Source: Priapulus caudatus
Lineage: Eukaryota; Priapulida; Priapulimorpha; Priapulimorphida; Priapulidae
Assembly (NCBI RefSeq): GCF_000485595.1
Contig: NW_014577619.1
Span: 4,926 to 68,925 of the forward strand
Reading direction: 5' to 3'
DNA: 64,000 nucleotides
The notes beneath the pieces are model-generated. The model was given only the letters and a program-made list of their open reading frames with translations. It did no database searches and was not told where the DNA came from. How positions within the stretch are numbered: position 1 is the first letter of the stretch; each line of letters starts with the position of its first letter. Positions 17,068 to 64,000 of the stretch are shown one piece after another. The position numbers and the translations under genes are program-made.

Positions 17068-17104
17068 CTGAATTTTTTTCTAATTTAAGGATCAGTCACA
17101 AGAA

Positions 17105-17431: not shown

Positions 17432-17591
17432 TAATACCTATGTTACATTACCTCGTGATGTCAACAACACGGCACAGCCCAGCAGCAATCTGACCCAGCC
17501 TAGCACAGCCCCATCTTTCAATTGCATACATCTTCTACGAGTATAAAGACGTTCGTTTCATTATCGCTTCTTAATATCAGAACCAACTATC

Positions 17592-19145: not shown

Positions 19146-19785
19146 GTCACGCCCCCCGGGCGTAGCATGGCAGAAGATCGGTCTATGGCGTAGATCATAC
19201 TAAATCTCAAAGTTCAAAATCTTCCACAGAAAGATTCCACCAGTCATACTCGTGCTTAGACATGCCGCGCGTTGAGTTGGTTCTTAGATCCCTATCCTTG
19301 CTATAATAGTTGGACACTTTGTGTAAAATTTTCTAACTTTTAGCGTGAAAAATATTTTACATTTACGCATGGGATTGTCATTGATATCTAGCCCTATAAG
19401 ATTGGTCATACAGTGGATAAAAAGTCGAAAGAAATAATGAATTAGGGCTTGGGTAATTATCCTGATCCGAACTAATTATTATCCGCGATACTCCAAAGGA
19501 AATTAGCTTGCTAGCAATCCACTGCTTACTGCACTTAAATTGTCATATTTATAATTTGTCGGAGATGCTTGTATGTATATGGCTTAAAGAAAACTAGGTC
19601 ACTACGTCAAAATCTCGGCAATGGCTGCCGCACGATTTGTGTAAATCTTGTGAGCTCGATATCTTGTGAAATTCACTGGCGACGGGGTGCAGGCGTTCTG
19701 CTTGTATATGCTCAATCATACAAGTAATGTATGTACATGCATTTTTCATTAGGCCTAAATCAGTAAATTGTATTTTATTTTTTAG

Positions 19786-23604: not shown

Positions 23605-23654
23605 TGTTGGGCTGATTGCTCATTGTGCAGAGAGATATGAGAACTCACTATTAA

Positions 23655-24136
23655 AGCCTCACAATGCGCATCCAAACGCTGAAATTTCTCTAGTACTAGA
23701 CTAGCAACTACTTTGTGGCATGCATAATCACACTACCTTTCATGACAAAAAAAACTCTATTCCTCCCATTTGACTGCACGTTCCAACAAGAAAGAGGTGC
23801 GAAATCAGGTAATCAGGCGCCAACGCTAACTTGTTTCAAACAACATCACATCGACTTGGTTTGGTGACGTCACATGTTTCTATCTTTGCTGCGCCCTACC
23901 GCTGTACCGCGCCACCGCTGCCACGTTGCTTGAGATTGGGGAAACTGTCAACAACATCGGAGAATTTCAACAACATGGAGGTATTTTCAAAATACCTTTT
24001 ATAAGACAACGCGCAGTGAAATTGGAGGAGCTAGAGTTGTATGTTTGCTCATTTAGGTAGTGTGATTATTCATGCCACGAAGTATTTGCTAGTCTAGTAC
24101 TGTAGAAATTGGCGTTTGGATGCACATTGTGAGCCT
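23655..24136. mobile_element. 482-bp TTAA-target MITE
   Basis: Flanked by TTAA on both sides (23,651-23,654 and 24,137-24,140). The ends are inverted repeats (AGCCTCACAATGCGCATCC left; right end in reverse complement AGGCTCACAATGTGCATCC), and further inward TCTAGTACTAGACTAGCAA..GGCATG pairs with its counterpart on the right. The paralogue at 52,424 has a single TTAA at this place, an empty site. No coding capacity. TTAA targets are used by piggyBac and Kolobok superfamilies; the parent is not determined. Confidence 0.9.
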
Positions 24137-37154: not shown

Positions 37155-38148
37155 GTGGTAACCGAAAACACACCAGCTATTGATGCCCATACAAGTGATC
37201 ATCCAATAGATAAAGTTAAAGAATGAAGGTCAGCCCCCTCTACAGACCATGGCTGGAGGTCAGCCCACTCTACAGACCATGGCTGGAGGTCAGCCCACTC
37301 TACAGACCATGGCTGGAGGTCAGCCCACTCTACAGACCATGACTGCAGCTGTCAGCCCACTTCTACAGACCATTGGTGCGAGGTCAGCCCTCTCTACAAG
37401 GACACCATGGCGCTGTGAGGTCAGCCCACTTACAGACCATGGCTGGAGTGTCCGAACCACTTCTGACAGAACCATGGCTGGAGGGTCAGCCCCTTCTACA
37501 GACCGCATGGCTGAGGTCAGGACCCCTTGCTACAGACATTGGCTGGAGGTCAACCTGCCTCTACAGACCATGCTGGAGGTCAGGCTCCACCTACAAGCCA
37601 TGGCTGGAGGTCAACCCACTCTACAGACCATGGGCTGGAGGGCTCAGGCCCAGCTCTACAGGACCATGGCTGTTGAGTCACGCCTTCACTTACAGGACCC
37701 GGATGGCTGGAGCGTCAGCTCCCCTCCTCACAGACCATGGCTCTCAATGGTCGTCGAGCCTCCTCTTGACAACCACCCAATGAGCTGGATGTCAGCCCCC
37801 TCTACCAGAGCCATGGGCTGGAGGTCAGCCCCCTCTACAGACCATGGCTGGAGGTCAACCCACTCAACAGATCATGGCTGGAGGTCAGCCCCCTCTACAG
37901 ACCATGGCTGGAGGTCAACCCACTCAACAGACCATGGCTGGAGGTCAACGCCCTCTACAGACCATGGCTGGAGGTCAACCCACTCAACACACTATGACTG
38001 GAAATTCTGGAGGTCAACCCCCTCAACAGACCATAACTGAATGGCACCATTATCAGACCACGACTGGAGGTCAACCACCACAGACCATGACTGAATGTCT
38101 CACAATCAATGAGTATGGTATTGGTGTGGCAATTATTGGACATGGCTG
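37155..38148 (+). CDS. Exon carrying a 30-bp coding minisatellite (MAGGQPTLQT)
   Basis: After acceptor TTACATAG the frame reads VVTENTPAIDAHTSDHPIDK, then a minisatellite whose 30-bp unit (GGTCAGCCCACTCTACAGAC plus CATGGCTGGA) is divisible by three and encodes MAGGQPTLQT / MAGGQPPLQT decapeptides, about 28 units to ~38,095. Units at 37,340-37,800 contain many small indels and break the frame; those at 37,220-37,340 and 37,800-38,000 are clean. The unique tail ECLTINEYGIGVAIIGH follows and is cut by a LINE. The Gln-rich repeat has no known function. The frame between the unique start and the first repeat also shifts once. Confidence 0.55.
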
Positions 38149-40048
38149 TAATCTCTGACCAGATAACGGTGTGTGACATTTTCAATGATCACTTCTCCAA
38201 AGTGGCCGAGGACATTGGAATCGAACTGAGTGAGGATGATGTGAAGAATCACCCCAGTGTTAAAAAGATTAAGGACAATCTACCTGTATGTGAAACCTTT
38301 AACTTTGAGAAGATCTCTGCAAATCAGGTAGATAAATACCTCACCAAAATTAGCAACAAAAAGGCCACCGGGCTTGACAACATTTCTGCCAAGATCCTGA
38401 AAATAATCAAGCCAGCCTATATTGTACATCTGACGAATATTGTTAATCGTATGTTTTCCGAGGGTACTTTTCCAATCGCAATGAAACATGCAAGGGTCTC
38501 TCCTATTTTTAAGAAGGAGGATCCGCTGCAGAAAAGGTATTATCGACCAGTCAGTGTTTTACCCATTCGATCGAAGATCTTCGAGGGGGCCATGGTGGAC
38601 CAGCTGGGTGATCACTTTCGAGGGATCTTTCATCCTTTCCTATCAGCGTACCGTAAAGGCTATAGCTGTCAGTCAGCGCTTCTTGCAATGACTGAGGATT
38701 GGAGGAGGGCTCTCGATCGTGGTCACTACGTGGGTGCCATCCTGATGGACCTTTCGAAGGCCTTCGATTGTCTTCCGCACCGCCTACTCTTAGAGAAACT
38801 GCGGGCCTACAATCTATCTGAGCCTGCCGTCAACCTAGTAAGCAGCTACCTCTCAGACCGTAGCCAGTGTGTGAAAATTGGTAGTGCTCAGAGCTCAGAC
38901 CTCCCAATTACTAAGGGCGTACCGCAGGGGTCCGTAGCAGGACCAATTTTATTCAATGTTTTTATCAACGATATCTTCTATTTTATAGGTAATTCAAATC
39001 TGTATAATTATGCTGACGACAACACTATCTCTTTTGCAAATAGCAACTTTGATGTAATGAAACAGACCTTGGAGGCTGAGGGTGGTGTCCTGGTTGACTG
39101 GTTCACAACCAATCAGATGGAGGCCAACCCAGGGAAGTTTCAGGGCCTAGCCGTGGGTAACAAGACCCATGACCGGGACCCCACCTTCAGCATCCAAGGT
39201 ACCGAAATCAAATGTACAGATGATGTAAAGATGTTAGGAGTCACTTTAGACTACAAGTTAAACTTTGATTTGCATGTCTCAAACCTGTGCAAAAAGGCAG
39301 CCAGACAGATAAATGTCCTAAAACGTATAGGCAAACATTTGCCACTCAACTGCCGAAAAGTAATTTACCAGTCGTTTGTTAAATCAAACTTCAGTTTTTG
39401 CCCAGTTATTTGGCATTTTTGCAGTGAAAACAACTGCAAAAAACTGGAAAAACTGAATTATCGTGCGTTGCATCATGCGTACCAGGACTATGACAGTTCG
39501 TATGAGAAATTGCTCCTCAGAGATGGCGCGACCTCCCTCCAACTTAGTAGGCAGAAGCTTATCGCTGAGGAAGTGTATAAAATTGCAAACAAAAACTGTC
39601 CTTCGTATATGCACAATTTAATTCCACCTACCAAAGATACGGGACATAACCTAAGAAATGACCATGTTAGCCTCCCGTCCTTTAGAACCATACGATATGA
39701 AAAGAAGAGTTTTAGCTATTATGGAGCCAGTCTATGGAATCAGCTACCTGGCTGTTGTAAAATAGCAGTAAACTTTGGCGAGTTCAAGAAACTCTTGTCC
39801 ACTTGGACAGGAGAACAATGTAAATGCTCCATGTGTAGATACTAGACTGTCTCCATCTGATCAAACTTATTTTACTTTTCTTGTATATATCACATAATGT
39901 ATCAAATCATGTATTTTTACACCGGTTTTTTAAACTCATGTTAGATATCGGTCTAAGAGCTGTCAGAGCTCATGTTCACATGTTATACACTATACCGATG
40001 AAAATAAAGCTTTATCTTATCTTATGTTATCTTATCTTATCTTATCTT
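38149..40048 (+). mobile_element. CR1-group LINE, 5'-truncated, with intact RT frame
   Basis: A single frame to 39,845 encodes ~560 residues of a non-LTR reverse transcriptase: FNFEKISANQVDKYLTKI, KKATGLDNISAKIL, PVSVLPIRSKIFE, LSAYRKGYSC, MDLSKAFDCLPH, KGVPQGSVAGPILFN, NYADDNTIS (catalytic YADD), KMLGVTLD, and the C-terminal SLWNQLPGCCK. The APE endonuclease half is missing. The 3' end is a (TCTTA)n tail (about 40,010-40,048) after AATAAA. Direct repeats ACATGGCTG (38,140-38,148) and ACATGCTG (40,049-40,056) flank it and look like a target duplication with one base changed. The open frame suggests recent insertion. CR1/Rex1/Crack type is the best guess; it was not searched. Confidence 0.85.
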
Positions 40049-43204: not shown

Positions 43205-44165
43205 GAATAGGAGCTATCTTAGCTGACAGACTTCTAGTTAAAGTGTAGTGTCTGCCTAGATTAAGATTGCTCCCTTTCAGCTGTACAGCAAGAACGCAAC
43301 AAGGGTGGACGACCAAAACACGTAGAAAACTTGCATTATCCTGTTGAGACTGCTGGTAAGGACAATTTATCACACTATGACACGGGGGACATTTTAGACT
43401 ATTTTCATAATTGATTCCAGTTGCTCCAAGACCAGAATTAATGTTTGGTCAATATACCACTAGCTAATAGGAAATTATCACAGAAAAATTGCAGTCCATA
43501 TTGCAAATCACATTTCATTCATTGCACCAATATGTTATCATTTTATAAATGTATGCTTTTGTTTATTTATTTTGTTAGCTTTTCAACAGATGGTATTGAT
43601 GAAATTAGCAGACATATCGCACTGTGTAAAAAAAGCTGGAACGGAAGTGTGTTGCTGCTAACAGCAGTACTCTGGAAGAGTTCCAGAGAGTAGTATCTGT
43701 ACAAGAGTCTAAAAGACTTAGAGGCGCAGCTCGATGATAATGAGAGGAGGAAGACATTTGTAAGTTTTTAATGTCATGCACATTGGCCAAATTTCCGAAC
43801 TTATGCAGGACAACATTTACTGGATGTGCTTACAAAGTCTGCTTATACGACATGTATTAACCATTACAGAGTATAGCATAGTTTATATCGATAACCCAAG
43901 AGGATTCTGCCTGTTTGTATGTCAGACATCTGATGGAGCCCATGCAATTTATTATATTTTATCTGGAATATCTGGTGGCCATTGGTGAGGACACAGCACA
44001 GAAACCGGAAGGATGATGACAAGGGCCTTGATTTCCTAAATCATGGTGCCAGAAGTACAACTGAAGGTCAATTTGATGTACGGTAATCGTGTGCATGGCC
44101 AAGAATACCGTGATCGGCTATCACTGAAAGACGACCTCACGAACCTACATGAAGGGTTGTTAAGT
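43205..44165 (+). pseudogene. BEN gene paralogue, copy C (upstream exons)
   Basis: Paralogous to 22,210-22,760. Exons: 43,281-43,335 (ERNKGGRPKHVENLH); 43,590-43,759 (MVLMKLADISHCVKKAGTEV, then KSLKDLEAQLDDNERRKTF, a coiled-coil stretch with one frame break), an exon copy B has lost; and 43,970-44,165, the first BEN exon. Two lesions in the BEN exon: the acceptor TTTTAG|CTGG of copy B is TTTTATCTGG here, and a 4-base CACA duplication in GAGGACACAGCACAGAAACC shifts the frame. The intron to the last exon carries the same SINE and LINE relics as copy B plus the 7.36-kb transposon. Confidence 0.6.
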
Positions 44166-44412
44166 AAGTATTGTCAAACTTAGTTTTGCTCCGTTTTTAA
44201 ATCCACTTGGGATGTCATCCATTTATGAGAAACAGAGTGGTTATAGAGCCATGGGCTTTGGATCACGATCTCCAGTGTTCGAGCCCCGGTCGCAATTTCG
44301 CATGGAAATGCACTACATAATCCCAGGCCGTGGATTTGTGTTAATTTTAACCACAGGTTACTTGCATTCTATACATATTAACTTACCTTGATTACAACGT
44401 ACTTGTATCATT

Positions 44413-44670
44413 TTAATAAGGGTGTAATATATTCGTCTTCTTCTTGTCCATTATTCCTTGTTGGCATGTAGGGCAGCAACAAATTAACGAACTCCATCCC
44501 TGTCTGTCATTAGCCAGCCTGCCAATAGTGCCCCAGCTATGTTTAAGGGTCTTCATCTCTGACTCCACAGTTCCCCACCATGTATTTTTGGGCCTGCCGC
44601 ACCTGGGCCTGCCTTCAGGTGTCCAGTGAAGGGCTGTCTTGCTGATGGTCATTCTCCCTTCTGACGACAT
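44413..44670 (-). pseudogene. LINE ORF2 C-terminal fragment, paralogous copy
   Basis: Same fragment as at 23,006-23,263 (ALHWTPEGRPRCGRPKNTWW, SWGTIGRLANDRQGWSSL), in the same intron position of copy C. Confidence 0.75.
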
Positions 44671-45670
44671 GACCGAGCCACCTCTAGTGTCTTTGAATGA
44701 TGATGGTGCTCATGCTCTCCTGGCCAGACTGCGCAAGCAGGTCGTGAGATATCGTCCGGGGCCAGAAGATGCGAATGATTATCCGCAAGCTTTTGGTGTA
44801 AAAGATGGACAGATTTGCCATGCCATGCCATGCCATATAGACAGCTTTGTCAGGACACAGGCCCTTGGAGGCTCAAGTTTCGAAAAAGTATAAGTCTATA
44901 TTAAGAGCGAAGCGGAAGGTACTTAACGCACAGCCACTGTTTTGAAGCCATAAATATGCCACTTCGTCTTGGCCCCGTATGTTAAAAATACGCACATAAT
45001 TACCTTTAAACCTGTATCAAATACTTCTTTGTGCAATCGTCTTTCACTAGAACCATAATTTACCGATTGTAACCATTTGGATTCAGCACAAAATCAGAAA
45101 AATATAGCAACGTCGAACGCGCCAAAAATCGAAAAGTTCACATTAACCATCTCGGCATGGTCCGCACCGAATATCAGCGCGGCCGCTCATTTGTAATTAT
45201 CGCGGATAATTGTGTGTTGTGCAATACTTGACACATGAATTCGACATTATTAATTTTATTAAATGACAAATGTTTAATCCATATCACTAATAAACTTATT
45301 ACATACATTTAAATATCTATTCAGTCTTTATTTTTTTGTTAAATGTTATGTTTATTTTGAGTCGTTACCTCCGTGGTGTGATCATGGTTACAACAACAGC
45401 CGCGAAATTCAAACAGCTCATTTCTGTGTGCGGTTAACCATCTTCCACAAGTTACAGTAGTTTTCCCCGTTTTGAAGCATCTATACAAGATGGCATCTAA
45501 GAATACAGATGTAGCTACCTGGTAAGTATTGTATAACATTATATCATTTTATTATTTTGTATTATCATTTGTATAAAATTGATAAAACATGGCATACGTC
45601 CGATAACTGTCAATATTTGACACTAATCTGGATGCAATTCCAGACTAGAATAGTTATGACTGACTGAGCA

Positions 45671-47041
45671 CTATTTGGACCGCTTCCCTTTCCCTTTCCC
45701 TTTTCCTTTCCCAGCACAAAAGGTACAAAACCATTTTGCGCGCTTGCGGCTGAGGAATGGTTCGTTCCAAGAAATGTTCTCACATGGATAGTGAAACCAC
45801 TTCCCACAATCATCACAGGCAACACTTTCCTCCTCGACTTTGGAAGGGTTTGCCACACACGTCTCACCACATTTACCACATGGATATGCACTGTCCTCTT
45901 CTTGAACTACTTCAATTTGTTTTTCACTTTTCTGCTTTGCCTTTTCCCCCAATGAAGCCAATTTTGGCCTCAGCGCAAGTTTCTTCTTCCTTGGAAGTGC
46001 TTCCTTGAAGACAGACAGATTATCACTGAATACTACTTTAGCATAGTAGTATGTTAGCTTCTCAAATAAGTCTAATGCACATGCACATGCAATGTCCTCA
46101 TCCACATTGTCTGGCATCCTGAACAAATCGAACCATGATTGTATGAGGTTCCCATGGGTCACAATAGTATTGCGACCCATTTGCAATACGGCTTCACCAT
46201 AAAGATGAAAAATTGACGTGGTAATGATACCACGAAGCTTACTAAATATCTCCACAAAGAATGAAAATGTCTCATCGGTTATATTTGTCAGGCCACGTGT
46301 CATGCCCTGGCGAAGTGCAGTTTCCACAAGGCTCTCTTGGAACTGGCTTGTTTCCTGCACTACGGCTTCAGGTGTCATTAACTGTGACAACAGCACTTTT
46401 TCAGTGAATCCGATGTTCCTAGCTATTGATGTACCCCCCTCTTTAATCCTTCTCCCACTCTCCACGATAGTTTCGCCACAGCAGCACCTCCAAGATATCT
46501 TATCTTGGACTGCATGGCACCATCAAATTGATCAAGAACACGCCAACTGGCTGAAGGAGCTGGAGAATTTCTTTGACTCTACCACAGCTGCACTTCTTTC
46601 TCGAACAATTCGACTCATGATGCTTTGCACAATCATGGTGCAGCACTTCGAACGCAGATTTACTAGACCAAATAGGTCAACACAGTTCGTCAAGTACTCA
46701 GGTGATACAAGAAATCCATACATTCCTTCCATACTGTAGGCTTTGGCCCAATCTGCACATGTTGAACCTTCCTTACACTCCTTTTGGAAAGAAAGACACT
46801 TGGTGTATGCATATAAAAGGAAAGAATGCAAGGCATCCTTCCTTTCTTTTAAAAAGTACATCAAGGTCCTGACCAATTCAGTTTGCTGAGGTTCTCCCTG
46901 TGATGGCAGCACTTCCTCCATGAAGTTTTCCATATCCCATGGAAACTCTCTCGTGGTCACATTTGACGTTACAACATCTTGTAGTTCCGTAGTTGCAATA
47001 TCAAGGTCAGAAGTCGTTGCAGGATCAGCAGTGCCACCAGG
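45671..47041 (-). pseudogene. PHD-finger protein of the P-type transposon
   Basis: Minus-strand gene from an acceptor CTCTTTTTAG at about 47,042 to a stop at 45,671. The N-terminal ~170 residues (EFPWDMENFMEEVLPSQGEP, FLKERKDALHSFLLYAYTK) match no domain I know. The C-terminal part has a PHD finger: YPCGKCGETC, VACDDCGKWFHYPC, then W-F-C-x-x-C (WFCTFC), the Cys4-His-Cys3 zinc pattern that reads histone H3 tails in known proteins. A basic GKGKGKGKRSK tail, encoded by a (GGGAAA)n tract, ends it. Two single-base shifts near 46,530 and 46,455 split the frame. The gene follows the helicase on the same strand; 161 bp separate the helicase stop from the acceptor, so they could share a transcript. 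Confidence 0.75.
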
Positions 47042-47202
47042 AACTAAAAAGAGTAATTAAAATTTTTTTTTCAATATTGAGACCACAACACCGACACAAT
47101 GAACATAAATAATTTTGAATGCTTTACTGGGCAAAAATGTGGCGTGTAGGTAGAATTCATATTGAGGTACCTCCCCCCAACTACACACACCAAATGATGA
47201 AA

Positions 47203-48469
47203 CTATATTTTTCTGATGTGACTTGATGGGGATGCAAGTCCGAGGATGTAGCCGTTTATTTTGATAGCCTCACCTTCATCAATTTCCACGTGAAACTGAC
47301 AACAGGACAGATCCTCGGGTGGTGCAACAGCAGGATCCGTTGCATTTCTGTAGAATGCGTATACCTCCTCTGGATGCTTTAATGATGCTCCGTCGATGTT
47401 TAGGTTGCGAATTTCAATTCCTTCCAGGGTTGTCGCTCTTCCAAGAGCAACCCCCATCTGACCTGCCTGGAAAAAGTCATGGCAGTCGATGACAAGGTGC
47501 GGAATAGTCTTTCCCTGCGCACGATGAACGGTAATGGCATACGCCAGTTTCAGTGGGAATTGTGTACGACAAGCCTTTGTTGTCTTCGTTTTCGGGTCGA
47601 AGACGCTGAAGCTGCACTTTTCAATAGTGAAAATTTTCCCGTTGAAATCGACTTGTATATCGTCCTTAACAGACACCACAGTTCCGCTGAAACCATTTGG
47701 TAGCATCTTGTTAATTGTTTTGATTAATATGACAGGACTACCACGTTTCAAAGACAACACTTTCGGCGCAGCACACGTCTTAAGATACTTTGTCTGTCCA
47801 GTATCGACGGCTCTGTAGCTTTTCTCCGGTCCCTGCAGCCGTTTCAGTCCATCTAAATTGTAATACAGCACATCCAAATTCGTGCTGCAAATCAGTACTG
47901 GATTTGGACCGTGTATCGGTCTCTGCAATGATTTCAGTAAATCAATAGTTTCCAGAGAGGGAGATCCACAACAGACCTCTTGATCAGCTAGAACCAGTGC
48001 AGGTTCATCCTGTCGAACAACTTCATTCAAATTCACATGGTGTGGGAAACACTTCTCAAAGTTTTTCGATGAAAAAGAGTACTCCCCAAAGTCAATATAA
48101 ATTCTCGATGGCACAGGCGGCAACTGCATGTAGTCACCACCCCCTATCAACTGGAGTCCCCCAAAGAATTTGTTTTCATCCCTTATATTCCTACAGATAT
48201 ACTCAGTCTGTTTGAAGATCCGCCTGGATATCATCGAGATTTCGTCTAGAATGAGGACATCTGTGTTTTTAATGCGATCGGCACATCCAGACCAATGCCG
48301 GTCATGCTGAATGAGATCCAGCAATTCCTCGTTTTCGTAACGTCCATCTTGTAATCCCACCCAGTGTTGCAGTGTTGTTGCATCGTTGAGTAACAGGCTC
48401 GCCATTCCAGTACTACTCGTAACCGCCACTCTTCTCCCCCCAGCACTCTTCAATCCTTCGGCTATCTTC
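47203..48469 (-). CDS. PIF1-type SF1 helicase, exon 2
   Basis: Main exon of a ~455-residue helicase of the PIF1/RecD-like SF1 family, which unwinds DNA 5'-3' using ATP. It starts after GAGTTTTTTTTTAATTACAG at 48,470. Motifs in order: KSAGGRRVAVTSSTGMAS (Ia), VLILDEISMIS (Walker B/II), LQLIGGGDYMQLPPVPS (III), LNEVVRQDE (IV), PLKLAYAITVHRAQGKT (V) and GVALGRATTLEGI (VI). All the catalytic motifs look intact and no stop interrupts 420 codons. Exon 1 with Walker A lies 3.2 kb upstream, across the transposase gene. Helitrons also carry PIF1-type helicases, but no Rep/HUH motif is present here. The role in the transposon is unknown; helping copy or repair the element is conjecture. Confidence 0.88.
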
Positions 48470-48593
48470 CTGTAATTAAAAAAAAACTCAAATATTATTA
48501 GAAAGTAATCAATGCGACTATTGATGCGCTGTGATCCATGGTGGGAAAGTTGTTTAACTGGTCATCTGACAAGATTTATGTTTTATTTTTCAG

Positions 48594-50960
48594 GCTCATG
48601 TGCCATATCCGTGAGGCCACAGACCAAACAACCAGTGTCAAGTTCAGTCATATGTATGAAAAATACTCAATATACTACGAGATACACAAAATATTGGTAC
48701 CAGCTACAGAGACCTGCTTCAGCGAGAACCTATCGAAACTGTTCCCAGCTGTCACGAGGGACCAAGGCCATAGATCCAAGTTGTATGGAATAGAGTGTAT
48801 GGAGGAGAAAGAGACCTTTCAGCCCGGTGAGGTGGAGTACCCGTATTACTGCGATGTTGTCGTTTTGCAAGGATCTGGTACTGGTACTGCCACCAGTATA
48901 AACGTCCGAACTGATCATGTTATTGATGGCAAAACATTGTGTGTCAATGTCAAAATTGAGGAGACAATATTGACATTGTTTGTGGATGGTGTGAAGGTAG
49001 CAGCGCCGGACTTGGGGATGAGTGAAAAATTTGTCCTCAATCAAAGCAACGTAAATGGACTACTCAATGCAATACAAAACATGGTTTTCTGTAAGGGAAT
49101 CGACTACCAGGAAGAAATTTCTGGGAAGACTTTGATTCAGCAAGTGTGGAGTACAACGTTTGGTGAATCCAGTTCGAAAAGAATATAAAATCTCGCAAAT
49201 GTGAGCTGGTGTTGCCATTCACAAGTAGGAGTATCGGACTATGCAGGAAATGTAGGGACAGCATCAATCGCTATAAAATGTTGTCAACAAACAAAGAAAA
49301 CAATTATTTGGTTAATGATGATACATAATTAAAACCATCTTTAGACTTGAGCAAGAAAAGCCACGAGGACCTCTTTGAAATCCTAAAGGAAGTGGTGCCA
49401 AACTGCACAGATGGATTTAAGACACTTTTGCAAAGTCAGTTGAACAATTTCAATACTGAAAATGTCTGTCAACGCAAGTGGGACCCAGCTGTTATTAGTA
49501 TTTGCTTGTCTATGTGGGTACGGTCCCCACAGGCATACCGAGACTTAAGGGGAGTCAGGGTTTTAAGTCAGGGTTTAAAGTCAGGGTTTAAAGTCAGGGT
49601 TTAAAGTAAGGGTTTAAAGTCAGGGTTTTTGGTGTTACCCAGTGACAGTACACTGCGCCTGTACAAGAACAACGTCAAACAAACCCCTGGCTTCAAAACG
49701 CAAAACCTTCAATGGATGGTGAAGGAGGCCGATCGAAGGAATGTGCCATGCAGGAGGGGTGGTCTCATCCTGGATGAAATGAGCATCCAGGATGATTTGC
49801 AGGTTGTGAAGAAGGGGGACGAATGGACACTTGTTGGTGCGTGTGACTTAGGAGAGTTGTGTAACAACATCAGGACTCTGAGACAGAGAAAAAAGGAATG
49901 TAGTTTGGCTAGTGAATGCCTACAATTCATTTTTCTCGGATTTCAAGGGTTTCGTTGGCCAGTGGCATATTTTCCAACATCAACTGCTAAAGCATATGAG
50001 CTTCATATTTTATTCTGGCAAGCAGTTGATATGTTGGGTCGATATGGCTTCACTGTAGATTACGTTAGTGTTGATGGGGCGTCAACAAATCGGTCATTAA
50101 TGAAAATGCACTTCAGTGGTGATCCGAGGGCGCAGCTGTACACCATCAAGGACATGTATGATCCAACACACGAGATCACTTTCGTGCAGGACATAAAGCA
50201 CACGCTCAAAAAAATTCGTAATGGACTTTCGTCTAGAAAGATGGAAATTGGAGGATCCCCAGTAGTCTGGGACAACTGGGTAAAGGCATACGAATTCAAT
50301 AAGAGTAACGGCTTGAGGATCCACAGAAAGTTGACAAGTGAGCATGTTTACTTGACACCAACTTCAAAGATGAGAAATCATCTAGCAATGGACGTATTAG
50401 ATACCAATATGCTGTACCTAATGCGAGTGTACGCCAATCATGTCGAGCACCCAGAAACGCTTGCGCAAACAATCGCTCTGTTAGAGAACACTAGTTTGCT
50501 AGTGACCATCTTCCATGACAGAAACCGGGCAATCGTGACAATGGAAGATGTGAGAGTGAAGCAGCTCAGGGATGCACTCAACTTCTTCAACCAGTGGGAG
50601 GCAAATGCAGCAGATAAGTCTCTCGTGTTAACTCAGCAAACACGAGATGACCTGAATTCGTCAGTGTTGGGATTCCTTGCCATGACAGAAAGAGCCATCA
50701 AGAACACAATTACGATAACTCCAGGATATATCAACTCTGATATCGTGGAAAACTTTTTCTGCCAGCAGAGAGGTCTGTGCAATGGCATGGCTACAAACCC
50801 CACGATATCCCAGTACGGACCAGCAGTCAATGCCGTAATTTTAGGGCAATCTACAATTTCGAAAAAAGGAAACACCAGCGGGCAAAATGCTGAACCTATG
50901 TGTGCCAAGCGAGCGTTTCCACTACTTCCTGCAAGGACCAATAAATGCAAGAAGTTATGA
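48594..50960 (+). pseudogene. P-superfamily (THAP9-like) transposase
   Basis: Rightward transposase inside the helicase intron. Starts after a TTTATTTTTCAG acceptor (48,593); N-terminal part to 49,188 includes KSRKCELVLPF and CRKCRDSIN after one frame shift; then 49,347 ff. (PNCTDGFKTLLQSQLNNFNT). The catalytic region 49,629-50,960 is one frame: LPSDSTLRLYKNN, LILDEMSIQDDL (Asp, 49,773), YVSVDGASTNRSL (Asp, 50,073), FVQDIKHTLKKIRNGL, and PGYINSDIVENFFCQQRG (Asp/Glu, 50,739-50,750). These are the RNase-H-fold blocks of the P/THAP9 family with all acidic residues present. A 13-bp tandem repeat at 49,554-49,630 splits the ORF just before LPSDSTL. No THAP zinc finger is visible. Confidence 0.88.
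49554..49630 (+). repeat. 13-bp tandem repeat (GTCAGGGTTTAAA)x6
   Basis: Six units of GTCAGGGTTTAAA (one GTAAGGG, first with TTTTAA, last running into TTTTTGG) interrupt the transposase frame. The unit is not a multiple of three, so the expansion shifts the frame. Confidence 0.9.
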
Positions 50961-51076
50961 GTGTAATGTAAGTAGTCTTCATTCAATACAGAATGTGATT
51001 ATTTGGTTTAGGCCTATCTATTAACGCACGATGAGACAATGATCTGGCTTTGAGCCAACAAAATCATCAAATTCTG

Positions 51077-51439
51077 TGTAATGCCACGTGGTCAGCAAAA
51101 AGTAAACAAACATTTGTTAAGAGGAAGCACAACGCAAGATACAGCACGAAGCAATCCAGCGATCTCTGCAAGGACTTGGCCGCTCTCTACAGAGGATCGT
51201 TTTGGTAAGGCCTTGCGCCTAGTTGTATCTTGTTCGCTATACTCGGGCCTTACGCTGCGAGGAATATTGTACCGTTTTATGCCCACTCTGGTCGGTTGAC
51301 CAGAGCGGAATAAAAGCCCCGGACCTATTCCCGGCGTAAACACTTTCATTTTTGAGTTGTGTTGTTTGTTCTTGTGCGACGTGTACAATCCAGTGGTCGA
51401 ACAGTGGGAGAGTCCCACGTAACGGGGAAAAACGTTACA
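51077..51439 (+). mobile_element. Solo-LTR-like segment
   Basis: Begins TGTAATGCCACG and ends AAAAACGTTACA (TGTAA..TTACA inverted ends). Contains the hairpin CTCTGGTCGGTTGACCAGAG followed by an AATAAAAG signal, like the R/U5 side of a retrotransposon LTR. A clean 5-bp target duplication is not seen (TTCTG left, TATAT right). It lies in the helicase intron downstream of the transposase. Confidence 0.4.
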
Positions 51440-51537
51440 TATATATATATATATATATGTATTCGCACGCGCGTACACGCATGCGCGCACACACGCGTGC
51501 GCGCGCATACATACACACACACTCACACACACGTGTG
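51440..51537. repeat. (TA)n then (CACACG)n microsatellite
   Basis: TATATATATATATATATATG followed by alternating CACGCG/CACACA words, a purine-pyrimidine alternating tract of nearly 100 bp. Confidence 0.9.
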
Positions 51538-51643
51538 AAACTATGCAGCAACACAAGCAGTAACACGCGTAAGCTAATCGTTGCTAGGCAACAATTGAAA
51601 TAATTATAACATTGAATTCTTGATCATACTACCATTAATGTAC

Positions 51644-51741
51644 CTCAATAGATATGTCTTGCCAGTCCCACACTGCCCTGTTATAAGGACACTATGCCCT
51701 TTAAGGGCGAAATCGTATGCTTGGGCCTGCTTTCCATTCAT
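51644..51741 (-). CDS. PIF1-type helicase, exon 1 (Walker A)
   Basis: A 98-nt exon on the minus strand. The ATG at 51,741 starts MNGKQAQAYDFALKGHSVLI and continues TGQCGTGKTYLLR; GQCGTGKT is the Walker A ATP-binding loop missing from the 47.2-48.5 kb exon. An in-frame TAA lies 12 codons upstream. The donor is GAG|GTACATT at 51,643. It ends after two bases of an Arg codon and exon 2 begins with the third base (G|AAG ATA GCC), so phase and motif order both fit (LLR then KIAEGLKSAGG). The exon lies just inside the right TIR. The 3174-bp intron contains the transposase gene in the opposite direction. Confidence 0.85.
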
Positions 51742-52218
51742 TTCGAAGCGATAATTCTTATCTTTAGTGTTATCTTATCTTAGTAATTCTTATCTGTACA
51801 ACTCTCCTACTATCGAGTATCGAGGTTGAAAGGCACGATACGTTTACGATACGCAACGATACCTAGTTTCACAAACTGGGCCAATGAGCGGTAGCGCTGA
51901 TATTCGGTGCGGACCATGCCGAGATGGTTAATGTGAACTTTTCGATTTTTGGTGCGTTCGACGTTGCTATATTTTTCTGATTTTGTGCGGAATCCAAATG
52001 GTTACAATCGATAAATTATGGTTCTAGTGAAAGACGATTGCACAAAGAAGTATTTGATACAGGTTTAAAGGTAATTATGTGCGTATTTTTAACATACGGG
52101 GCTAAGACGAAGTGGCATATTTACGGCTTCAAAACAGTGGCTGTGCGTTAAGTACCTTCCGCTTCGCTCTTAATATAGACTTATACTTTTTCGAAACTTG
52201 AGCCTCCAAGGGCCTGTG

Positions 52219-52925
52219 GTCAGGATGTAATATAGCGTATAATAATTTTAATACATGTTAACATCTTTCTTCTTATTTCAGAAGCTGTAAAACGAGTTCA
52301 TCCGAATCAAGTCGATAAAGCAATTAATCATGATCTTTCTGACTACTTGCGCTCAGCAGCGAAGCGGGTATAATGATGTTGAGCTGATTACTCAACGTGC
52401 AGAGAGATGAGAACTCACTATTAAACTAGTACTACATGTAATTAGCCATTGAACTACTTGGTTTGAACAATTTCATCATTGGGACATGGATCATGACAAT
52501 CATTTGTAAATTGTTTATGTATGTTTTTTTGAATTAATAACTTTGAATATTTGCTAATAAAATGTAAAAAATGTTAATAAGATTGTGTATTATAACATTT
52601 TGTTTTTTGTTGTGGTGACGGATTCTCATTCAAAACACGAGTTTTAAACTTCTGAAAACCTGCATTTTACCCCCATGAAAAGTTCAGGTATGAAACCTAG
52701 TATAGTTGCATGTTAAGAACTAAAATGGACGCGACGAGTAATGTTCAGACACAACTTGGAAACTACAGGAAAATCTGCGTTATATACTAAAAAAACGCGT
52801 GTTTTCTGCGGGGGGTTCCTGACGTTTCGGACACGCGTTTGGATATTTGATTCAACCTGTAAAATACGCGTGTTAGTTTCGGTTTTTAACACGTGTTGGA
52901 AACTCGATTTTGCGGGCTTGGAGCA
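52219..52925 (+). pseudogene. BEN gene paralogue, copy C (last exon and 3' segment)
   Basis: After the transposon, sequence paralogous to 23,450-24,675 resumes. The last exon 52,282-52,373 (AVKRVHPNQVDKAINHDLSD, AAKRV, TAA) differs from copy B by a few residues and stops one codon earlier. It lacks the 482-bp TTAA element that copy B has. Ends near GCGGGCTTGG. Confidence 0.6.
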
Positions 52926-52929
52926 CATG

Positions 52930-53660
52930 TTTTGAAACCCGAGCAAACTTGAAAATTCCTGAGCCAAAAGCTATAGCTGATCCTGAGCAAGCTTATGATT
53001 TTACGTGCCAGCTCAGGTTTTGTTCATATCCTGTGCCCAAAATCTGAGCCTGCTTATGTTTGAACCAATGCAAAATATGTGTGGTACATAAAAAAGTCTA
53101 ATTCAATTAAGCCTGTGCCGTCTAAATTACGCATGTTTTGAAACCTGTGCCACAAACCTGAGCCACAAACGTGTGTTGCACAGAAAATATTTCGAGCTGG
53201 GCACCATGCGAATTTATTCGCACGACTGCAGCAATTGTTAAAATCGCAGCGAAATTCGCATGGTGTGTCCGCTCAAGTGCCGGAAGATTTCATCTGCACC
53301 AAAATTCGCAGCGATCAAACATGTTTGATATTTTCAGTGCGGATTTTAAACGCTGCGTACAGATTCGCATTGTGTGTTCATGGGAGCCAAAATCGAGCCG
53401 GCCGATGTTATAATGCAACAAATCATTGATCAGTATGCTAATCACGTAAGTGACAAATGGCGGCAATCCACATGACTGTTGGAGCCGTGTCGCGGCAGTA
53501 GATCGCGTGTAGTGTGTCCGCTCAATTTATCGCATGCGGATGCAAATATTTTAATGTATTTTTTTTATGCTAATTTCGCTGCGGTTCTGTTTGCAACGAA
53601 ATTCGCAGTGTGTCCCCCGCTTTACTTCTTCTGAAGAGCAGTAATCCTAAAATGTGCTGT
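52930..53660. repeat. Dispersed GCGAATTCGCATGG-type repeats, possible MITE
   Basis: Up to ~53,190 the words CCTGAGCC / CCTGTGCC / GTTTTGAAACC recur. From 53,196 to 53,620 there are related blocks in both orientations: CACCATGCGAATTTATTCGC, GCGAAATTCGCATGGTGTGTCCGCTC, and CGAAATTCGCAGTGTGTCCCCC at the right end. This fits a short element with weak inverted ends, but boundaries are unclear. No gene. Confidence 0.4.
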
Positions 53661-54390: not shown

Positions 54391-54398
54391 CAGCTACT

Positions 54399-54670
54399 GT
54401 GAGTGATTTCGTTACGAAATCAGCTACTGCGAGTGATTTCGTTACGAAATCAGCTACTGCAAGTGATTTCGTTACGAAATCAGCTACTGCAAGTGATTTC
54501 GTTACGAAATCAGCTACTGCGAGTGATTTCGTTACGAAATCAGCTACTGCAAGTGATTTCGTTACGAAATCAGCTACTGTAAGTGATTTCGTTACGAAAT
54601 CAGCTACTGCAAGTAGTTTCATTACAAAATCAGCTACTGCAATTGATTTCGTTACGAAATCAACTACTGC
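54399..54670. repeat. Palindromic 30-bp coding-like minisatellite (DFVTKSATAS)
   Basis: Nine tandem copies of a 30-bp unit GTGATTTCGTTACGAAATCA plus GCTACTGCGA. The core GATTTCGTTACGAAATC is a palindrome except for its centre base, so both strands read DFVTKS and both are open throughout. Units are highly uniform. A single extra copy lies at 59,886-59,912. I see no gene around it; the open frames follow from unit length. Confidence 0.9.
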
Positions 54671-54689
54671 ATTTAATAATTATTATGCA

Positions 54690-55428: not shown

Positions 55429-58205
55429 ATGGATACTACAGAGGAACAGTTAGCGGGATTAGCCGCTGAGCTAGAAGCTTTGCGTCTGGTAACGAAAGAA
55501 CAGGATGCAAAAATAAAACTGCAAGAAACACAACTGCTACAACAACATGCTGCAATTTCTTCGAGTTCGGACGTCGATACACGTCCCTTGGTCATGATGA
55601 CAAGTCGGCGGCTGGAGCGATTCCGGGATCGACCCGCTAAGTCTACCGATCCGACCGTTTACGAGTGGGTAGCCGATTTGAAAAGCCAGGCCGAGACTCG
55701 GAAATTGTCCAAGTCAGAGTTTGCAGCCTTATTGATGGATCATCTTGCTGGCAAGGCTCGCCAAGAAGTGCAGGGCAGAGGAGAGTCCACTAACAAAGAC
55801 CCTGACCTGATTATCAAGATTTTAGTCACGGTGTTTGGGGACGGTGATACCCTCCCTGCCCATGCTATCAGCAAGGACCAGATGAAGACTTTCTGACGTG
55901 TTCGCTTCGCCTAGTGGAGATCTACAACCGCATCGAGGAACTGGATCCCACATTTGCCGCTTGCAAGGATGCGTCACTCAAGGGCCGTCTAGCCGAGTGT
56001 GTGAAAGACGAGGGTCTGCAGCGGGAGCTGCGCAGGTTGCGCAGCAACATCGAGTTAGCTTCTTTAACATACGTGATCGTGCCATCCGTTGGCTGGGCAA
56101 GACCAAGCCGGTTGCACCGAGGGTCACCGCCAACGAAACACAGGCAGAATGTCTTCCCCCTGCTCTTGAGTCTGCTCTGAAGCGCCAGGAGGCAGTAATA
56201 GCCCAGCAGCAGAAGCAGATCGAATCCCTCCTGAGTGGCATGCCGAAACCAGCATACAAGCCACTCGCCCCATACGCATACAAGCCTCGTTATGACCAAT
56301 CCGGGCCACGTAAATGCTGGATATGTGGGTCGACCGCTCACTTAAAGCGCGATTGCCCCCGGAATAACGACCAGCTTCAGCAAAGAGCAGTAGGTAATCC
56401 AGATTTAAACGAATAACACCTGCTGTGGAGAGCCACACAGTAGGTCAGGTGGGCGAGGGCTTGTTCTTCAGGAAAGCAGTGGGTACCTGTCCGGAAGCCA
56501 CCGTGAGGATGGGGAGCAGAGAGGTTAGATGTTTGTTGGACACGGGCGCACAGGTGTCAACAGTCACGGAATCGTTTTTCAGAAACAACCTGACTGATGA
56601 GGTAGACCTGCTAGATGTTGCTAACCTCATTCGTATTTCTGCTGCCAACGGTGAGGACATACCCTTTGTGGGCTACCTCGAGCTCGACCTAACGGTATTT
56701 GGACAAACCTTCCAGAATATGGGGTTTTTGGTGGTCAAGGACACCAAGGAGCATACTTGTCGGGAGCGTACGAAAGTGGTGCCCGGTGTGTTAGGTTCAA
56801 ATATTTTTCGAGCCATGCAACAGGCTGTGAGTGAAGGGAGTGAAGGGAGCACCATTCCAAAGGAATGGAAGACCATGTTAGCACTGTATGAGGAGATACA
56901 GGTCGACGCAGACTCTACCAAGGTTTGCAAGGTCAGGGTGGCAGGACACCAACCAGTACTGATACCGGCTAATTCTATCACGGTTGTAGAGGGTAGTGTC
57001 AAGCCCATTAAACGGGGACAGTAATATTTTGCCATGATGGAAGAGCATGACGTCTCTTTTCAGCCGCTACCAACTGGGTTGGGTCTTGGACGGTCATACG
57101 TACATGTGACCCAAAGTGGCCGTGTGCCAGTGCAGCTCGCAAACTTCAGTGATAGCGACATCTATATCAAGCCACGAGTGCCTATCGGAACTTTACAATC
57201 AGTTGCAGTGGAATCTAGGTTCGATATGGTTCAAGTGAGCTGCAGAGAGGTGCACGTATGCGAAGTAAGGCAGGATGCTGTACTAACCGACGATGTTACG
57301 CAGTTAGTGGATCGCATGAGTGTGAATGAGACGTTGGATGATCAGCAGCGGACCAAACTAGGCAGAATTTTGTCAAAGCATCTGAACACTTTCAGTAACT
57401 CTGATGACGACATTGGTTTTTGCGATGCGGTAGAGCATCGGATCATTACAACTGACGACGTACCCGTAAAGGTGCCGCACCGACGCATTCCGCCGCATCA
57501 GTGGGGGGAGGGACTATATTCAGAAATCATTAGATATGGGGGTTATTAGGGAATCCACCAGTCCCTATGCAGCACCAGTAGTGCTGGTTCGGAAACGGGA
57601 TGGAACACTACGACTGTGTTGTGATTATCGGGCGCTTAATGCCAAAACGCGGAAAGACGCCTATCCGCTCCCACGGATCGAAGAAGCGTTAGATGTACTA
57701 AAGGGCGCCAAGTACTTCTGTAGTCTCGACTTGGCTCATGGGTACTACCAGATCCCGGTTGCAGAAGGTGATAGAGAGAAGACTGCTTTCCGAGTTGGTA
57801 CTGGAGGTCTGTACGAATACATCAGAATGAGTTTCGGATTAACCGGGGCCCCCGGCACCTTCATGCGACTTATGGACAAGATATTCGGCGATCAAAATTT
57901 TCAGACCCTGTTAATCTACTTAGACGATATATTGGTGTTTGGTACTACATTCGAAGAAACCCTGGATCGGTTGGATATGGTGCTGTCGAGGCTTGCCCGT
58001 TTCAACTTAAAAGTAAAAGCGGAAAAGTGTCACTTATTTAAGGAGAAACTTCGCTACTTGGGACATGTGGTTTCGCAGGAAGGCGTTTTGCCAGACCCAG
58101 GGAAAACTAACGCTGTGGGAGAGTGGCCCAAGCCCACCACGGAAACAGAATTGAGAGGTTTATTGGGCCTCGCGGGGTATTATCGTCGCTTTGTACCCCA
58201 TTTTG
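55429..58205 (+). pseudogene. Ty3/Gypsy retrotransposon 2 (gag - protease - RT)
   Basis: Gag starts at 55,429 (MDTTEEQLAGLAAELEALRL, coiled-coil-like), with MTSRRLERFRDRP and FAALLMDHLAGKA of the capsid-like region, and a frame break at ~55,890. The nucleocapsid knuckle CWICGSTAHLKRDC is at 56,314-56,357. Protease: CLLDTGAQVS (about 56,530). Further breaks or stops are at 56,414, 57,023 and 57,548. RT from 57,536: DYRALNAKTRKDAYPLPRIE, FCSLDLAHGYYQIPV, MSFGLTGAPGTFMRLMD and YLDDILVFG with intact catalytic residues (57,917), then GLAGYYRRFVPHF. It stops abruptly at ~58,205, where a different Gypsy RT begins; RNase H and integrase are missing. Confidence 0.9.
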
Positions 58206-59194
58206 CCATTAAAACCAAATGCTATGCCAGTTGTATACCCACCACGCAGAATACCATACGCTATTCGCAATAGAGTCAAAGTTGAACTCGACCGCATGGA
58301 ACAAATGGGGTCATCGTCAAACAGCGAGAGCCTACACCATGGGTTAACTCGATGGTTACTGTACAGAAAGGAGACAAGTTACAAATTTGCATTGATCCAA
58401 CTGACTTAAATAAAGTCATAATGCGTGAACATCATCCGACAGTAACTGTAGAAGAAGTTGCTGCACAAATTGGCAACGCAACAAAGTTCACGAAATTGGA
58501 CGCGCGTCACAGTTATTGGCACATCGAGCTAGATGACGAGAGTTCTAAGATGTGTTCCATATTCGGGAGATAAAGATTTCTCCGATTCCCATTCGGTTTG
58601 TGTAGCTCAGGAGATATCATGCAACGCGCCATGGAAAACATCCTAGAGGGGATTGATGGTGGGAAAGTGATCGTCAATAATACATTAATTTGGGGAAACT
58701 CCGATCAGCAACACGACGAACGAGTAAAGCGAGTTCTCAACCAAGTAAACAAGGCTGGACTAAAACTCAACCCCGATAAAGCTGAAGTCGGTAAAGAGGA
58801 AGTCAGCTATGTAGGTCACACGCTCACTCGTCATGGTTTGAAGCCGAATCCAGAACGCGTGAGAGCAGTCGTAAACATGCCGCGACCAACAAACAAACAG
58901 GAAGTGCGCAGATTCTTAGGTATGGTTACCTATGTAGCCAAGTTCATTCCTGATCTGTCAAACATATCTGCACCACTACGCGAACTGATCAAAGATGATG
59001 TCGACTTCACATGGAATAACGAACACACTACAAGGTTCGAGGAACTGAAAAAGCTGATAACAAGCGCACCGGTTCTGAAGTACTACGATGTCACAAAGCC
59101 GATCACACTATCGGTTGACAGTTCAAAAGATGGTCTAGGTGGATGTATCTTACAAGAGGATCATTCGATCGCATATGCGTCACACGCAGCCTAA
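58206..59194 (+). pseudogene. Ty3/Gypsy retrotransposon 3 (RT - RNase H fragment)
   Basis: A separate Gypsy lineage: YPPRRIPYAIRNRVKVELDR, then WVNSMVTVQK, LQICIDPTDLNKVIMREHHP, FTKLDARHSYWHIELD, FPFGLCSSGDIMQRAMENIL, LGMVTYVAKFIPDLSNISAP and the RNase H start LSVDSSKDGLGGCILQ. It ends at 59,194 within RNase H. Breaks near 58,310 and 58,573. The RT motif that should read V-(I/V)-DD-I-L-I-W reads VNNTLIW: both catalytic Asp codons (GAT) are AAT. It is inactive. Confidence 0.88.
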
Positions 59195-61327: not shown

Positions 61328-62037
61328 TTAATGATGAAGGTCTTGTAACCCTACTGACTGTAGTGGAAGGCATCGTAAACCATCATAACAGACCCATCAC
61401 TAAGCTATCAGATGATCCTAGAGATGACAAACCCCTCACACCAAGTCACCTGTTGATGCTCCGCTCAGGACCTTCTTTACCTCCTGGACAGTTTGAAAGT
61501 AAAGATCTATATCGTCGGCGTTGGAGATAGGACAGGTGCAGTACCTGGCAAATGTATTTTGCAGGCGCTGGAATCAGGAGTACTTACCTGCCTTGCAAGT
61601 GCGCAAGGTGATTTGGTGATTGTGAGCCAGGACAACACCCCTCGCAACCAGTGGCCATTGGGCCTGATTATCGATACTCACCTTGGAGCTGACAGACTAG
61701 TGCGCGCAGTTGAAGTGAAGACTGCCTCTGGCACCTATGAAAGACCAATGACCAAGATTTGTTTGTTGGAAGGCTCTGCTACAGAGCAGCAGTAATCAGC
61801 AGTGAGCAGCTGCGGTGCAGCAACGATGCTACAAGTGTTAGTCAGTGATATTCCATTCGCATCCTTCTAATCTATATGTTTGCAAATAATTGTTGAAAGA
61901 CTTCTTTACTAATCATAAATTATTAGGCTTAAGAAAATCACTGTGCTACTATTTGTGTACTTAACTTGGACGTTACTACAGTTATAAAATCCAGATCGCT
62001 ACAATTTTATTTTCACTTCATGTTTTTTTATCACCAG

Positions 62038-64000
62038 CTGTATAGACAACCAGTCATGCCACCACAAAGGGTGCAATACCACTCTTTGTTCGAACTGAAA
62101 AAAGAAGCAAATGGCTTGATCATGCCCTGGGTGTTGTTGCGGCCAGAAGATACCGAGTGCAGCGACTTGAAAATAGGTAGACTAGACAGTGGGGAGCTTG
62201 GTCTTACTATAGACATCGACAAAAAGATGGTAGCATCAGTCTGTCTGCGGGGTATAGTATACCCTCCCCCCCCCCAATTAATTTTTTATTCTTTTGACCG
62301 AAACTCTAAAAACAAAAAACAACATTTAAAAAACGTTTTCTCAGGGTGTATCTACTTGATGTTATGTTAGTGAAACTGAACTAAAAACCTTTTCAGACAA
62401 GCTGGTCCTAACAGAACAGGCTGATGTGGTAGGACTGACATCGCTACTTAGAAACGCAAACACGCTCATAGTGTGTCCTGGAGTTACGGACAGCGACCTT
62501 CAGGAGCAGGCTGTGGCAGATATGCAAGGAGAGGATAGAACCTACTACACGGAGATATTCTATTCTGGTAAGCAAATACCCTAATCAAAAAACAAAAAGC
62601 TGGTGTCACCACTCTCTCGCAATGTGCGCCACTGTCAAGAGTCAAGTCAAAACAAGCTCTTTGTGCTGAAATTTCAGAACTTCGAAAAAAAGGAAAGCAA
62701 CTAGAAAGTGAAATTGTTAAAATTCAAACCAAAATTCATGATGAGAGTGTAGAAGTCAGCTGGGACATCAACAGTGAGCTCCAGCAGTTTTTTTCTTCTG
62801 CCCACAGTGAGATCGATCCATTTGTACAGCTATTTTGGCAGGAACAGCAAAAAGCCTTTAGCTGTGCAAACAGAGGGATGCGATGGCACCCAATGCTCAT
62901 AAAACTCGCTATCTTTGTGAAGCAGCAGAGCCCTGCACTATACCGCACACTGAGAGACATGGGCGTGGTCAAGCTGCCTGGCGAGTCCACTCTCAAGGAC
63001 TACACCTCTGTGTTCAGTTGTGGACCAGGGTTTCAAGAGCACGTCATCCGTGACCTACAAAAACAAACAGCCAACTTTGATGAAAGCCATCGCTTCGTCT
63101 GTTTATTACACGATGAGATGCTCATCAAAAGCGATCTGGTTCGGGACAAGAAAACGGGAAACAAGAAAACTAATTGGATACGTTGCGAACGAGGAATTTA
63201 ATCCACAGAAGGTAAATGGTAAACTTATTTTAAATTCTTAATTTGTTTGTTAAATTTGTTTAGTTTAAGATATTATGTATTCTCTCTAATTTTTGCAGGA
63301 TGTCGACAACAACATCGCCAGCCATGTTCTTCTCTTCCTCGTGGTTGGGATTAATTCATCCGTTCACGCAAGTATTGGTTATTTCGGCACGCGGACTGCA
63401 ACATCAGAAGCGCTGTATGTCCACTTCTGGGACGCAGTGGCCTACTTGGAGACGACTTGTCAACTGAAAGTAAAGAAATTTATCAGTTACAAGTTTATTT
63501 GTTTATTAGTTATTAATCCACAAAGGGTACTAAATTATTGAGAATTATTGATTTTTCATTATTTTATGGTGATTATTGAGTTACTAAATAACTGATTTGA
63601 ATTATTTGCCTGCGTATCAATATCATTGGTTGATTTTTCAGGTAATGGTCTCTACATCCGACAAGGCTTCAACTAACATGCGACTTTACGGCATGCATGC
63701 CATAGGTGGAGAGCCCCTGGGTGTGGTCCACAAAACTGTAAATGTTTATGCCCCCGACCGAAACATTTACTTTATGTCTGATGCACCCCACCTGCTGAAG
63801 ACGTTCAGAAACAACATCCACGCCTCTAGATCCTAAGGTGGCAAATGGCTGTTAAAAGTATATCACTGGTAAAATAAATCGGCTATAAAACAATCAGTTT
63901 TAGCCTATTGTATAAAATTTGGCATTTTATATAGAAATGTTTACATTTTAGGTGAATGGGTCTTTCATCACATGGGACCACATAAAGCAGCTGTGGGAGA
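62038..64000 (+). pseudogene. Second P-superfamily transposase, spliced, runs off the edge
   Basis: Exons: 62,038-62,251 (LFELKKEANGLIMPWVLL); 62,397-62,567; about 62,610-63,211; 63,299-63,469; 63,642-63,857; 63,952 to beyond the window. Exon 3 begins with a coiled coil (SELRKKGKQLESEIVKIQTK) and has MRWHPMLIKLAIFVKQQSPA, GVVKLPGESTLKDYTS and LLHDEMLIKSDLV (first Asp). Exon 4: SIGYFGTRTATSEALYVHFW. Exon 5: STSDKASTNMRLYG (second Asp) and MSDAPHLLKTFRNNIH. Exon 6: VNGSFITWDHIKQLWE. These are the P/THAP9 RNase-H blocks. A frame change near 63,165 and an in-frame TAA at 63,834 in exon 5 suggest a dead copy. The lineage differs from the 49-51 kb transposase. The TIRs are not in view. Confidence 0.82.

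Follow-up and report, generated by a model that had tools for sequence, protein, structure and literature searches.

A P-superfamily DNA transposon copy enclosing PIF1-type helicase and PHD-finger genes in Priapulus caudatus

P elements are classical eukaryotic transposons. Here, we analysed a 64,000-nucleotide stretch of the priapulid Priapulus caudatus (contig NW_014577619.1 of assembly GCF_000485595.1, positions 4,926 to 68,925 of the forward strand; hereafter, the window, whose numbering is used throughout), in which a 7,363-bp unit at 44856-52218 lies between terminal inverted repeats (TIRs) and encloses coding regions for a P-type transposase, a PIF1-type helicase and a PHD-finger protein. 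Statements taken from the literature refer to the portions of the cited papers available to us. The features of the unit and its paralogous target site are the following.

23447-23453, plus strand: GCCAGGG, the empty target site of the paralogue, from the flank alignment
44849-44855, no strand: left target-site duplication GTCAGGA, abutting the outer TIR edge, 7/7 bases exact
44856-45191, plus strand: left TIR, 336 nt, beginning CACAGGCCC
45490-45521, plus strand: favoured transposase exon 1 (MASKNTDVAT plus a split W codon), predicted, followed by a GTAAGT donor
45671-47056, minus strand: PHD protein gene, start codon unsettled, with a C4HC3 PHD finger at 45716-45880
47203-48469, minus strand: PIF1 helicase exon 2 with motifs Ia to VI, from Pfam, motifs and matches to solved chains
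48470-51643, minus strand: helicase intron (GT...AG) of 3,174 bp, predicted from the frame and splice sites
48594-50960, plus strand: main transposase exon, with an RFX-like winged helix, a middle region and an RNase H domain carrying a candidate guanosine triphosphate (GTP)-binding insertion
49553-49628, plus strand: 13-bp minisatellite of 5.8 copies inside the transposase frame
51580-51592, plus strand: weak X-box-like palindrome GTTGCTAGGCAAC from a pattern search, within the helicase intron
51644-51741, minus strand: first exon of the PIF1 helicase, carrying Walker A (GQCGTGKT), from the Pfam scan, motifs and splice prediction
51883-52218, minus strand: right TIR, 336 nt
52219-52225, no strand: right target-site duplication GTCAGGA, abutting the outer TIR edge, 7/7 bases exact

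Ends of the unit and its target site

Searching 44000-53000 for inverted-repeat pairs of at least 30 nt, we obtained a single pair, which corresponds to the TIRs of the unit and carries 7 mismatches in 336 nt. With up to 3 mismatches allowed, the outer 22 bases of the TIR occur at two sites only in the window (mean of 0.00 in 100 shuffles). The sequences flanking the unit align to 22392-23452 (93.9%) and to 23449-23655 (92.3%), and there they join with no insert between them. Because GTCAGGA is found at both edges and the paralogous site lacks the insert, we infer that the unit arrived by transposition and duplicated 7 bp of its target. TIRs combined with target-site duplications of 7-8 bp characterize the P superfamily, and the 336-nt TIRs, the 7-bp duplication and the empty site all agree with it. 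A first-pass annotation, made from the letters alone, had proposed the GTCAGGA direct repeat and an empty site near 23,450, both of which were recovered as listed, while the 335 bp that it gave for the near-identical TIRs is corrected here by one base.

Sequence related to the left flank of the unit is also present at 15802-16408 and 22392-23452, and 9772-16408 and 16543-22991 form a tandem duplication of approximately 6.5 kb with 89% identity. On the minus strand of the left flank, 44413-44709 resembles by eye the 3′ end of a reverse-transcriptase frame of a long interspersed nuclear element (WTPEGRPRCGRPKNTW).

Coding regions between the terminal inverted repeats

A six-frame Pfam scan of 45192-51882 reported the following families above cut-off: TNP-like_RNaseH_N, PIF1 together with AAA_30 and AAA_19, and PHD. 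The three gene-sized regions of the first-pass annotation were thus borne out in content, with the helicase split and the transposase and PHD frames interrupted.

The transposase has a P-type RNase H catalytic domain: TNP-like_RNaseH_N (PF21787) matched the 451-residue frame at 49605-50960 with an E-value of 1e-16 (61.9 bits; cut-off, 24.6). A candidate GTP-binding insertion, TNP-like_GBD (PF21788), scored 22.5 bits, slightly under the threshold (1.6e-4; cut-off, 24.8). The reported signature of the P superfamily, D, D, [C/D](2)H, E (PMC8230255), is present, with D at 49773, D at 50073 and E at 50748, while the D(2)H element may be either DPTH at 50160 or DIKH at 50190; these residues were chosen by eye from the motif, without an alignment. 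The spacing between the second D and the E is 225 residues, close to the 228 of Drosophila P (303 to 531; PMC8230255) and the 227 of Galileo (415 to 642; PMC4168063).

In the available portions of the literature, the P-element transposase is described as starting with a THAP domain, and no THAP domain was found in the six frames of 45192-51882 (Pfam, E<=1). At the N-terminus, RFX_DNA_binding matched with 21.8 bits (E-value, 2.9e-4) when the exon at 45490-45521 was joined, and with 13.3-15.5 bits, depending on length, when exon 2 was used alone. The joined exon, first spotted by eye, is 32 nt long and is located approximately 300 bp inside the left TIR; it has the top donor score among 41 phase-compatible candidates and the top RFX score among the 9 of the 41 that were scored, the other eight giving 15.2-19.6 bits. 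When the N-terminal sequence was compared with solved structures, one chance-level match and no RFX chain were returned, NCBIfam gave no match for the N-terminus, and a single-sequence structure prediction of the RFX-like region was unusable (mean predicted local distance difference test, pLDDT, of 38.4). The X-box-like palindrome at 51580 is a hint: the chance of at least one such site in the element was 0.04-0.08 depending on the pattern (500 Markov shuffles; patterns written post hoc), the strict pattern has 3 matches in the whole window, and a laxer second match lies at 49634.

A second, different P-superfamily transposase is present at 61933-64000 (TNP-like_RNaseH_N, 9.9e-7), in two frames and truncated by the end of the window. 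It shares 25 of 78 residues with the first transposase, and its three plus-strand frames showed no THAP domain at E<=1.

For the helicase, the GT/AG borders and the phase of the two predicted exons are consistent, and the spliced frame is open over 454 residues. PIF1 (PF05970) matched the spliced protein with an E-value of 2.2e-29, and motifs I, Ia, II, III, IV, V and VI are all present, as in superfamily 1B helicases of the PIF1 type; the patterns of motifs Ia and IV were derived from this sequence itself. Its best solved chains are PIF1 helicases (2e-47), whereas Helraiser, a Helitron, is distant (4.3e-15). NCBIfam returned only distant RecD and TraA matches, all under their cut-offs. A close phage source was considered and rejected, since all of the 335 matching phage records (335/335) have <60% identity to the helicase. 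Within the predicted helicase intron, 51100-51420 resembles by eye a piece of a retrotransposon long terminal repeat or promoter (AATAAAAGCCCCGG), after which come runs of AT and CA/CG dinucleotides.

The PHD finger is C-terminal (Pfam, 1.4e-6), retains all eight C4HC3 zinc ligands and is followed by a basic tail. Among solved structures, it matches TAF3 (1e-4) and Pygopus best, and then KAT6A and Spp1; the PHD fingers of TAF3, Pygopus and Spp1 read methylated lysine 4 of histone H3. The N-terminal piece of the protein matched no family above the Pfam cut-off, its single-sequence structure prediction was unusable (mean pLDDT, 40.9), and NCBIfam gave no match for the PHD piece.

Compared with these results, the gene assignments of the first-pass annotation hold for the PHD protein and for the full set of acidic residues of the transposase. 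The P/THAP9-type label stands for the catalytic part and fails for THAP, and the PIF1-type helicase with all motifs is upheld with the amendment that its Walker A exon lies 3.2 kb from the rest.

Elsewhere in the window, three reverse-transcriptase frames of retroelements (RVT_1) were found at 33456-34304 (1.3e-18), 38091-39842 (7e-29) and 57470-58270 (3.2e-32). At 37224-38093 and 54391-54671 there are two tandem arrays whose offsets are multiples of 30 bp, the former within an open frame that has GQPTLQTMAG repeats.

Gene arrangement and rival explanations

The main transposase exon lies wholly within the helicase intron and on the opposite strand, so that the helicase exons flank the transposase body; exon 1 of the transposase, at its favoured position, is located past both the PHD gene and helicase exon 2. 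The genes are interlocked if the exon at 45490 is real, and such an arrangement, for which a predicted exon is partly needed, points to a long shared history. Recent nesting is hard to reconcile with this layout because the helicase and transposase exons would interlock, and the layout, again partly through the predicted exon, argues for one unit over nested insertions. We consider it more likely than not that the unit represents a single decayed copy of a cut-and-paste DNA transposon of the P superfamily, from a lineage carrying two accessory genes. The copy itself is probably dead, since its transposase and PHD frames are broken, although the helicase frame is open.

Several observations weigh against this reading. 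Only one copy was seen, and the recurrence of the three genes is presumed. The transposase frame breaks near 49186, at 49326 and, within the minisatellite, at 49602; the main PHD frame has two stops within 46523-46534 and, judged by eye, is shifted twice around 46440-46540. The spacing between the first and second D, 100 residues, is longer than the 73 reported for Drosophila P (PMC8230255) and the 88 reported for Galileo (PMC4168063). The six-frame Pfam scan reported neither the GTP-binding domain nor RFX at E<=1, and the RFX score of 21.8 bits is below the Pfam cut-off of 27, for which reason the domain is called RFX-like only; a pair of X-boxes is absent from the two element ends. The long transposase intron that begins at the exon at 45490 is likewise a prediction, favoured but not proven, because an alternative exon at 48512-48540, implying a 53-bp intron, scores 19.6 bits. 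With this alternative, the transposase side of the interlock is gone, and if exon 1 at 45490 is discarded, the helicase intron holds the entire transposase gene, which is also what a nested insertion would produce. Finally, the roles of the helicase and the PHD protein, probable as they are, are drawn from family knowledge.

Other histories may be proposed for the locus. An ordinary P-superfamily element may have captured host PIF1-like and PHD pieces as passengers in this copy only, in keeping with the single copy examined, the broken transposase and PHD frames and the habit of DNA transposons of taking up cargo. We give such a one-off capture a minor but real chance: the helicase core is compact, open and motif-complete, and the enclosure of the main transposase exon by the helicase intron, together with the favoured exon 1 past the PHD gene, suggests a long association. 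A P element merged by insertion with a second element that brought the helicase and PHD genes would account for the main transposase exon lying wholly in the helicase intron and, if the alternative exon at 48512-48540 is used, for the entire transposase gene doing so. This nesting appears improbable to us, given that the longest inverted pair inside the TIRs is 23 nt and 74% matched, and that the helicase intron holds only shorter pairs (39, 25 of them listed), which were not each checked for duplications. Neither a Rep nor a second transposase domain was reported in the six frames between the TIRs, the Helitron-like 3′ motifs are only two and weak (45626 and 48498), Helraiser is far more distant to the helicase than PIF1 is, and an exon 1 located at 45490 would, if real, put transposase sequence to either side of the block of PHD and helicase genes. 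That a host locus, domesticated or otherwise, merely happened to fall between inverted repeats would fit a helicase frame that is intact beside others that are not, but we hold it to be barely credible, as the edge duplications and the empty paralogous site indicate an insertion of exactly this unit.

Further searches returned little. The two subterminal regions share three 10-mers, two of them overlapping, which is unconvincing, and Rfam at gathering scores gave 0 matches in 44000-53000. In viral contigs, no pattern match was obtained with helicase exon 2 or with the transposase, the exact TIR end had 0, and the C-terminal PHD piece had 10 pattern stretches, none of them confirmed; among the genome contigs of GTDB, 20 pattern stretches for the helicase and 4 for the transposase were likewise not confirmed. 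These two collections hold viruses and prokaryotes, and negatives in them therefore carry little weight.

Proposed mechanism and comparison with known systems

In the mechanism that we propose for the accessory-gene transposon, the transposase would pair and cut the TIR ends and insert the element, the 7-bp duplication deriving from the stagger, by a GTP-assisted RNase H chemistry of the P-element kind. The RFX-like winged helix, in the place of THAP, probably holds the transposase to the long TIRs. The probable task of the PIF1 helicase is to unwind DNA, either where the ends are cut or in the donor gap, and so to aid end processing or copying by gap repair. In P elements, homologous recombination or end joining has been reported to mend the donor break with the help of host factors, a Bloom helicase homologue among them (PMC7776569); by analogy, an element-borne PIF1 may play a comparable part and promote copying through gap repair. 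For the PHD protein, a probable role is to anchor the complex on the histone H3 tails of active chromatin, or else to shield the element from silencing. RAG2 likewise holds its complex on histone H3 tails.

We also put forward, tentatively and with chances that we judge a little short of even, that a whole P-superfamily lineage operates as a three-gene machine composed of an RFX-domain transposase, PIF1 and an H3-reading PHD protein, whose interlocked, opposite-strand genes would make none of them easily lost. In such a machine, excision would be linked by the helicase to templated repair of the gap (copying), and the PHD protein would direct new insertions to active chromatin, in a P-element counterpart of RAG1L-RAG2L. 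If true, a P relative with another DNA-binding domain and two accessory proteins would make the superfamily modular, would allow a direct test of what a helicase and a chromatin reader contribute to cut-and-paste transposition, and would bear on the origin of RAG1-RAG2. The combination could also show how transposons enlist extra helpers.

According to the first-pass annotation, the gene content would be a new composition. In open-access titles and abstract openings (Repbase and Dfam being outside this scope), we found no P-superfamily element with PIF1, PHD or RFX among the matches listed, and in its details the claim stands; in principle it does not, as accessory helicases (Kolobok, PMC9587614; Academ, PMC10045372) and a PHD partner (RAG-like, PMC7204232) are in print. 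An accessory helicase or PHD gene on a cut-and-paste transposon is, in the available portions of these papers, a known principle, and what was unseen among the matches listed is the combination of a P transposase with an RFX-like domain, PIF1 and PHD.

Drosophila P, THAP9 and Pdre2 resemble the unit in having an RNase H domain with the D, D, D(2)H, E residues; they also have a GTP-binding insertion, for which the unit has a candidate. The transposase is the sole gene of classical P and THAP9 elements, whereas the unit carries PIF1 and PHD genes inside its TIRs; the four open reading frames (ORFs) of Drosophila P are spliced into one transposase. In common with the unit, Helitrons encode a PIF1-family helicase. 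That of Helitrons is fused to a Rep nuclease, in elements with neither long TIRs nor duplications, whereas no Rep/HUH nuclease fused to the helicase was found in the six frames of the unit.

The TIRs of Pdre2 start with CA, as do those of the unit (PMC10983969). Drosophila P differs in being a 2.9-kb element whose TIRs measure 31 bp (13 bp in Pdre2) and which has 8-bp duplications, a THAP domain and four ORFs (PMC7776569, PMC10983969). Galileo, a P-superfamily element of Drosophila, resembles the unit in its combination of a P-type transposase, long TIRs and 7-bp duplications. Its TIRs, of 0.5-1.2 kb (PMC3688188), are longer than 336 nt, its duplications are mostly of 7 bp, with 8 bp in three copies (PMC4168063), and it has a THAP domain (PMC4168063) where the unit has an RFX-like domain.

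Outside the P superfamily, the Kolobok lineages KolobokH and Kolobok-1_CCri combine, like the unit, cut-and-paste transposition with an accessory helicase, which in Kolobok-1_CCri is also on the complementary strand (PMC9587614). This helicase is a RecQ rather than a PIF1, the transposase belongs to another superfamily, and the term PHD occurs 0 times in that text (PMC9587614). AcademH is likewise a lineage of DNA transposons whose defining feature is a helicase that they encode (cited in PMC10045372), but of another superfamily and with 9-10-bp duplications (PMC10045372). RAG-like transposons, composed of RAG1L and RAG2L, differ from the unit in the kelch propeller of RAG2L (not found in the unit), in a RAG1L/Transib-type transposase and in 5-bp duplications, and the available portion of PMC7204232 names no counterpart of the helicase. 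They share with the unit the pairing of a transposase gene with a PHD-bearing partner, the RAG2L gene being convergent to RAG1L and encoding a C-terminal PHD finger except in amphioxus (PMC7204232).

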